From Caenibius sp. WL (GTDB taxonomy: Bacteria; Pseudomonadota; Alphaproteobacteria; Sphingomonadales; Sphingomonadaceae): a stretch of DNA of 64,000 nt. The position numbers and the translations under genes were made by a program. Within the stretch, counting starts at the first letter, position 1. Each line of letters opens with the position of its first letter. Below the pieces are notes generated by a model that had not been told where the DNA came from, made no database searches, and saw only the letters and a list, made by a program, of their open reading frames with translations. Positions 11,969 to 12,183 of this stretch are shown here, piece after piece. Location: positions 1,624,501-1,688,500 of the forward strand of contig NZ_CP081844.1 in the NCBI RefSeq assembly GCF_019803445.1, written 5' to 3'.

Positions 11969-12183
11969 AAAAATTTTTTGTGCCGCGAGTCTGCTTTGCC
12001 ACACCCCTAGATATCGAGTCTTGCGTTTGCGCCATGACTCCAGATGCTGTGGCGGACTCGTTGTGTTCCGTTTTCGGGAAAGGTATTCTGACCCCGCTGC
12101 GCCAGGGCGCGTGGCCGCAGCCGGCTTGACGCGGACTCCGCGAGGACTCACCCTAGGGGCCACTCAAGGGGGTTTGCATCCGG
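11969..12183 (+). promoter_or_regulatory. ccrM leader with six GANTC methylation sites
   Basis: This 215-base gap before ccrM holds six GANTC sites: 11987-11991, 12016-12020, 12036-12040, 12055-12059, 12134-12138 and 12145-12149. Chance would give fewer than one in this length, and fewer still in GC-rich DNA. GANTC is the sequence the encoded enzyme is expected to methylate, and in Caulobacter the ccrM promoter region is itself methylation-controlled. The cluster therefore probably forms a feedback site that senses full or hemi-methylation after replication. No clean CtrA box was found. Confidence 0.75.

Follow-up and report, generated by a model that had tools for sequence, protein, structure and literature searches.

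Conserved and helically phased GANTC sites in the predicted ccrM promoter of Caenibius sp. WL

Background

Why should the DNA in front of the gene for a GANTC adenine methyltransferase be crowded with targets of its own product? The question is raised by a 64,000-nucleotide stretch of the 3.49 Mb genome of Caenibius sp. WL (positions 1624501-1688500 of G000:C1), here called the window, in which six GANTC sites lie within the 215 bases (11969-12183) that extend from the stop of an ABC-F type ORF (10340-11968) to the ATG of ccrM at 12184. In Caulobacter crescentus the promoter of the orthologous gene is CtrA-activated and methylation-sensitive, with two GANTC sites in the leader, and to our knowledge the timing of CcrM outside Caulobacter has been little studied. 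A comparative survey has counted GANTC sites upstream of cell-cycle genes and is reported to conclude that methylation control is not derivable from such counts (PMC2877005).

Results and discussion

The methyltransferase gene and its surroundings

The gene following the sites encodes a CcrM-type GANTC methyltransferase: its product combines an N6_N4_Mtase domain (PF01555, E 5e-64) with a C-terminal RAMA domain (PF18755, E 2.4e-21) and matches the structure of the Caulobacter enzyme (PDB 6pbd) with E 2.3e-152. The CcrM model NF050803 also recovers it with E 1.4e-182, yet the score of 606 bits stays below the cut-off of 830. The GC skew of 20 sampled stretches places the origin at about 0.41-0.56 Mb and the terminus at about 2.11-2.26 Mb; from these estimates ccrM, at 1.637 Mb, would be replicated about two thirds of the way along, so that its hemimethylated period would begin late. 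The ABC-F type gene, whose best NCBIfam match is NF000355 (346 bits, cut-off 380), separates rnhB (9633-10247) from ccrM; among 78 named relatives a crude motif locates the end of rnhB at most 700 bases upstream of ccrM in 33. The features discussed below are collected in Table 1.

Table 1. Features of the ccrM promoter region, in positions of the window
Feature	Position	Strand	Basis or remark
Module A, four GASTC sites, spacings 29/20/19, inner imperfect dyad	11985..12069	+	alignment of 39/80 leaders; model R1
GANTC site 1, GAGTC	11987..11991	+	centre G in 147/148 relatives; rows anchored on site 1, presence partly by construction
GANTC site 2, GAGTC	12016..12020	+	centre G in 132/148 relatives, lost in 16
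GANTC site 3, GACTC	12036..12040	+	centre C in 133/148 relatives, G in 2, lost in 13
GANTC site 4, GACTC	12055..12059	+	centre C in 96/148 relatives, A in 1, G in 1, lost in 50
Predicted -35 hexamer, TTGACG	12126..12131	+	TTGAC invariant in 30 aligned leaders; class-wide
GANTC core site, GACTC, at TTGAC+8, within the -35/-10 spacer	12134..12138	+	sequence and class survey
GANTC core site, GACTC, at TTGAC+19	12145..12149	+	final base is the first of the -10 hexamer
Predicted -10 hexamer, CACCCT, 17-base spacer	12149..12154	+	alignment
Place of the DnaA box of most relatives (TGTGGATAA); the window reads TAGGGGCCA, no box	12154..12162	+	alignment
ccrM, GANTC adenine methyltransferase	12184..13326	+	N6_N4_Mtase and RAMA domains; 6pbd match

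Six sites against a depleted background

The original prediction had listed six GANTC sites in this stretch and a random expectation below one. All six are exactly where it placed them (Table 1), and at the genome's own density 0.36 sites are expected per 215 bases. This density, 1.72 per kb, comes from 800 sites in 464 kb, comprising the window and 20 further 20-kb stretches, among them one (L255) chosen to cover gcrA; across the window itself GANTC is depleted, with 123 sites observed against a mean of 283 in shuffles. Relative to the genomic density the ccrM stretch is enriched about 16-fold, with a Poisson probability of 2.4e-6 for six or more sites in one such stretch, and a scan of the 464 kb in steps of 5 bases found it to be the sole 215-base stretch with six. 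The runner-up, with five, falls in the first part of a coding sequence whose translation we read as recN. Apart from the ccrM cluster, the 464 kb contain four groups of four or five sites, the runner-up among them, and these have exclusively A/T centres; all six ccrM sites are G/C-centred, against 20% of the genome's GANTC (P = 7e-5).

The clustering extends to related genomes, so that a lack of enrichment there, named with the original prediction as grounds for refuting it, is not what is seen. For 80 named ccrM loci, assigned to sphingomonads and erythrobacters by their record titles, 2-12 GANTC occur within 300 bases before the tblastn match in 80 of 80 cases, one locus (L068) contributing only 166 bases. 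By sequence comparison, the cluster is real and strongly conserved, and it is older and more structured than was first supposed.

Two unlike parts and a predicted promoter

The aligned leaders (80 rows) display two conserved blocks with a variable stretch between them; dropped from the alignment were L068 (too short), L084 (failed anchor) and L082 and L083 (on the same contigs as L001 and L002). The consensus of block A over 39 leaders is GAGTCCTCCnnGCCACACCCCAnnATATCGAGTCC...GGACTCAACATCTTGTGnCGGACTCnTTTCGTTCC and that of block B over 30 leaders is CTTGACGCGGAnTCCnnnAGGACTCACCCTGTGGATAA. Model R1 of block A was built from these 39 of 80 leaders and model R2 of block B from the 30, nine of the 39 being omitted for differing length. 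The sites had been regarded as one uniform cluster; instead they fall into two parts, a core (block B) found across the class and an upstream element (block A, hereafter module A) specific to the family, and a uniform array is rejected by this difference in taxonomic reach.

Block B has the layout of a promoter core, and we predict that transcription starts at about 12161-12164. From this predicted start it follows that all six are promoter sites, lying in or upstream of the core, and not leader sites; the word leader in the original prediction is therefore a misnomer. The actual mRNA leader would measure about 20 bases and carry the ribosome site AAGGGGG, the ATG of ccrM standing 58 bases past TTGAC. 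This assignment is supported by the position of the start codon outside the family. Of 60 class genomes, 35 combine TTGAC with a GANTC at +18..20. If the start codon is taken as the first in-frame one at least 30 bases past TTGAC, it falls 35-38 bases past TTGAC in 20 of the 35 (18 times as ATG). It thus coincides with the expected transcription start, so that these ccrM messages would be leaderless; leaderless-looking examples are L198, L205, L231 and L237.

A structured RNA leader was also considered and rejected: 0 of 9 predicted pairs in module A show compensatory change, and the sole Rfam match on 11000-13600 is a sub-threshold one to Acido-1 at 11850-11908 (E 0.22), inside the ABC-F coding end, which we take as chance.

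The core across the Alphaproteobacteria

At E <= 1e-60, 102 of 142 class genomes have a ccrM match, and from these 40 upstream regions representing 39 families were chosen, best scores first and with room upstream required. In 27 of the 40, TTGAC is followed by a GANTC at +18..20; 24 of the 27 have an additional GANTC at TTGAC+6..10, and 23 of the 27 a third just upstream of the -35, at 32-40 bases before the +19 site (expected 2%, p about 3e-36). TTGAC was picked by its GANTC offsets in this survey, and control stretches from the window's genome were given an equal free choice of TTGA-N; the +18..20 site then occurs in 8 of 1560 and both sites in 0 of 1560. The centre base of the +19 site in the 27 genomes is C in 20, A in 5 and T in 2. 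Judged from these positions, the combination of TTGAC and GANTC spans the Alphaproteobacteria, in over half of the sampled genomes. The core as defined is absent from 13 of the 40, and four of these (L208, L212, L219 and L225) have no GANTC in the 300 bases upstream.

Module A, an element of one family

Module A includes two inward-facing GAGTC half-sites, 20 bases apart. In the genome of Caenibius sp. WL, R1 finds the place of module A with E 3e-18 and, with model positions 20-68, matches it again on the opposite strand with E 0.0044. In 22 of 35 own-family genomes the element likewise matches itself on the reverse strand; the inner part is an imperfect dyad. Among the 150 candidates scored out of 689, R1 yields no other match in the genome of Caenibius sp. 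WL up to E 10.

A profile drawn from 78 of the 80 leaders in the alignment (L009 and L034 left out) recovers module A at E <= 1e-3 in 78 of 86 family genomes outside the building set, a few of which may share species with the profile set, and misses it in 8; it finds none in 13 genomes from other families of the order. Under stricter filters R1 gives 26 matches at 1e-3, 4 weaker ones and 5 blanks over 35 own-family genomes, and 6 weak matches (E 0.01-0.35) and 18 blanks over 24 genomes of other families. Two of these six weak matches are taken as chance, one lying inside the end of rnhB (G025) and the other in a genome without a ccrM match or such a promoter (G004). Module A thus appears to be an element of the window's family, without being universal there; the family, labelled f1 in the family-wide searches, is presumably Sphingomonadaceae.

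Within module A both the spacing and the letters are fixed. Among 148 leaders the successive spacings are 29 in 113 of 132, 20 in 111 of 121 and 19 in 80 of 87, and where a site is present its centre base follows the order G, G, C, C (147/148, 132/132, 133/135 and 96/98). The 182 extra GANTC of the same leaders are A/T-centred in 125 cases, nearer to the genome's 80%. Because the GANTC target does not prescribe these centre bases, something else probably reads module A. This suggests a reader other than CcrM, and methylation may be incidental there.

Spacing by whole turns of DNA

Module A and the core are separated by a limited set of distances. Of 157 leaders with module A, 126 are measurable by profile landmarks (31 are without a landmark), and in these the distance from a fixed point of module A to TTGAC is 66-67 (11 leaders), 76-78 (79) or 87-89 (36) bases and nothing else. 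A looser set of landmarks, usable in 148 of the 157 (nine failed) and again picking TTGAC by its GANTC offsets, a choice with which the profile-based measure agrees, gives for site 3 in 135 leaders 68-69 (9), 78-80 (90), 82 (2), 89-91 (33) and 100 (1) bases; the two leaders at 82 bases are the ones out of register. The 148 elements comprise 140 distinct sequences and 8 duplicates, and over the distinct ones the distances of site 1 are 116-118 (11), 126-130 (95), 138-140 (33) and 149 (1).

The resultant length for site 3 to TTGAC (135 of the 148 leaders) is 0.93 at 10.5 bp and remains 0.91-0.93 across periods of 10-11; for TTGAC to the coding anchor, a loose control with 74 leaders, it is 0.15. 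A FastTree phylogeny of CcrM, restricted to the 113 of the 148 whose gene is complete, requires at least 11 switches of turn class and at least 35 changes of exact distance. That 11 changes should all land on the 11 seen values among 25 (116-140) has a probability of about 1e-4, a rough figure in that the allowed values are taken from the data. The spacing is accordingly conserved modulo the DNA turn in these sequences, and no other observation points as strongly to proteins of module A and of the core that touch or share one face of the DNA. The cooperativity suggested in the original prediction is supported here, in that spacing by whole turns fits cooperative protein binding.

Extra GANTC sites outside these landmarks behave less uniformly: in other families R is 0.29 at 9.5 bp in the class set (p 0.01-0.02, n=74) and 0.22 at 11.2 in a larger set (p 0.05, n=110), and 170 extra sites of the window's family give R 0.61 at 10.0 bp but 0.33 on the 35 distinct distances, values uncorrected for shared descent. 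Given this inconsistency, phasing is claimed solely for module A versus the core.

CtrA, DnaA and GcrA as possible inputs

CtrA sites take the form TTAA-N7-TTAA or TTAACCA. In the window TTAA is absent from 12070-12126, the interval that separates module A from the core, so that the CtrA site expected upstream of the -35 in a CtrA-activated promoter is not seen there; in 62 of 148 relatives TTAACCA, which we take to be a CtrA-type half-site, stands between the blocks. A perfect DnaA box occurs somewhere in the element in 103 of 148 relatives; 98 boxes lie directly after the -10 and 6 inside module A, and in L072 a box is located in the spacer. A link between DnaA and ccrM had been noted earlier for organisms whose ccrM is without CtrA sites (PMC2877005).

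The window's genome has a gene for GcrA (PF07750) at G000:C1:2918764-2919435, with three GANTC in the 300 bases upstream, in which the TTGAC core was not seen. About 3 kb from this gene lies a second methylase-like frame (G000:C1:2915209-2915889, 28% identity to CcrM, 535-aa open frame). A GcrA profile search covering 97 of the 102 ccrM genomes gave no match at E <= 0.01 in 6 of the first 40 class genomes and in 16 of 57 more, an absence that rests mostly on draft genomes. These 22 of 97 include G432, G356, G435, G384, G363 and G410, and some are incomplete. The pairing of CcrM with GcrA thus seems to be often uncoupled.

All six GcrA-less genomes among the first 40 keep the core. With TTGAC or TTGAT allowed and 20 regions added (16 without and 4 with a GcrA match), the core persists in 11 of 22 GcrA-less genomes versus 24 of 38 that have GcrA (Fisher p 0.42, 60 genomes), and in 10 of 15 GcrA-less genomes of at least 90% completeness. 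GcrA alone therefore does not explain the core, which is retained without it, and as a sufficient cause GcrA is rejected by the same comparison.

A methylation-sensitive sensor and its alternatives

Starting from what the sequences display, namely the density and positions of the sites, the core, its phasing with module A and its retention without GcrA, we propose, with even confidence for and against, that the ccrM promoter serves as a replication-coupled, methylation-sensitive negative-feedback sensor of its own product, the sign and the reader being the parts that we infer. Replication would leave the sites hemimethylated and open a period of ccrM transcription, and full remethylation by CcrM would lower promoter activity again. 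At the core, methylation might act directly on the binding of RNA polymerase with sigma-70 or through the reader of the lineage, GcrA where present. Module A might be bound by a putative dimeric or tetrameric GASTC-reading protein, for which CcrM and GcrA are candidates, and this protein would contact the core complex on the same face of the DNA to yield a steeper switch.

The negative sign is favored because a modelling paper, citing others, states that activation of Caulobacter ccrM requires a hemimethylated chromosome (PMC2217572) and because gcrA of Agrobacterium, with six GANTC, is described as repressed by CcrM (PMC11514494); in addition, a positive loop would probably be unsafe, as methylation once lost could not be regained. 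Against this sign stand the GANTC promoters of ftsZ and mipZ, which are reported to be more active when methylated (PMC3708114). The 13 coreless genomes of the class sample, the 8 family genomes without module A and the loss of the DnaA box in the window also count against the sensor as proposed.

One alternative is a GcrA-sigma70 promoter, with methylation as the activating mark: GcrA would bind GANTC in the methylated or hemimethylated state and switch ccrM on, as it does at its Caulobacter targets. In our judgement this is a doubtful reading. The window's genome has gcrA, two GANTC (12134 and 12145) lie between the predicted -35 and -10, Caulobacter cell-cycle promoters with GANTC in this position are activated at 40-60 min (PMC4287350), and the preference of GcrA is given as fully or hemimethylated GANTC (PMC8116508). 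However, such a promoter should be lost along with GcrA, and the core is not (11/22 vs 24/38, p 0.42). Moreover, the extended motif YGAKTCK reported for Caulobacter fits 11987 and 12016 alone among the six sites, neither of them in the core, although this point is weak in that Brevundimonas subvibrioides is described as having no such preference (PMC7987155). A spacer GANTC, in a predicted promoter, and a gcrA gene are thus in place, whereas YGAKTCK in the core and loss in the absence of GcrA are not.

Module A might also be an ordinary transcription factor operator with the half-site YGAGTCC, whose targeting by CcrM is incidental, leaving the core sites alone methylation-sensitive. We hold this to be unlikely, even if it accounts for the fixed centre base and orientation of the sites, for the conserved letters beyond GANTC (GCCACACC, ATAT/ACAT, TGTG and GTTC) and for the inner dyad with its reverse-strand self-match in 22 of 35 own-family genomes. 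The lack of a second copy in the same genome up to E 10 (150 scored of 689) would be odd for a general regulator, and four placed, exact CcrM targets in the promoter of ccrM itself would make a strong coincidence. Finally, clustering without functional cause, through chance or base composition, might appeal to the report that alphaproteobacterial intergenic regions are generally richer in GANTC by more than 1.5-fold (PMC3973325), but it is rejected as extremely improbable: the local enrichment reaches about 16-fold relative to the genomic background, the site positions are kept across genera and the core across the class, and the spacing is quantized.

Returning to the feedback sensor, we tentatively suggest an evolutionary extension, to which we give a lower probability than to the sensor itself. 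In an ancestral sensor independent of GcrA, m6A at the two spacer sites may be read by RNA polymerase itself, or CcrM may repress its own gene; every copy of ccrM would then signal that the fork has passed and remethylation has not yet followed. The window's family would then have added a GASTC dyad, read by CcrM or another protein through an in-phase loop, resulting in an ultrasensitive switch, and the Caulobacter circuit of CtrA and leader sites would be a derived exception.

Relation to known systems

The ccrM promoter would belong among the known CcrM-sensitive promoters, as a variant. In place of the two leader sites of Caulobacter ccrM, the window has two sites between -35 and -10 and four in a phased element further upstream. 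Spacing by whole turns is shared with the helically phased, looping operators of araBAD, lac and gal; the ccrM sites differ from these in being targets of the enzyme encoded downstream. The promoters of ftsZ and mipZ (motif CGACTC, PMC3708114) and ctrA P1 (GANTC at -29, PMC4287350), which are sigma-70 promoters controlled by GcrA and CcrM, likewise have GANTC in the promoter region. They are mostly single-site, more than one GANTC within 50 bp upstream being given for 11 of 96 Caulobacter cell-cycle starts (PMC4287350), whereas the ccrM core has two to three fixed sites in most of the class genomes that possess it, with or without GcrA. A similarly dense arrangement is found before Agrobacterium tumefaciens gcrA, a cell-cycle gene, where 250 bp contain six GANTC; gcrA mRNA drops on CcrM overproduction, and activation upon hemimethylation has been proposed (PMC11514494). 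This case concerns another gene and not the methylase's own, and a conserved core or helical phasing is undescribed in the part of that paper available to us. Within the open-licence literature, as distinct from subscription work such as that of the 1990s on Caulobacter ccrM, we found no description of the ccrM core or its upstream element.

In our reading, the signal is carried by the position of GANTC rather than by its number. The fixed TTGAC core with GANTC at about +8 and +19 is a testable candidate for the oldest part of CcrM control, and the turn-wise placing of one family's upstream element leads us to expect a specific protein contact. Altericroceibacterium xinjiangense (L009), which keeps the core with no match to module A, offers a natural test of what module A contributes.
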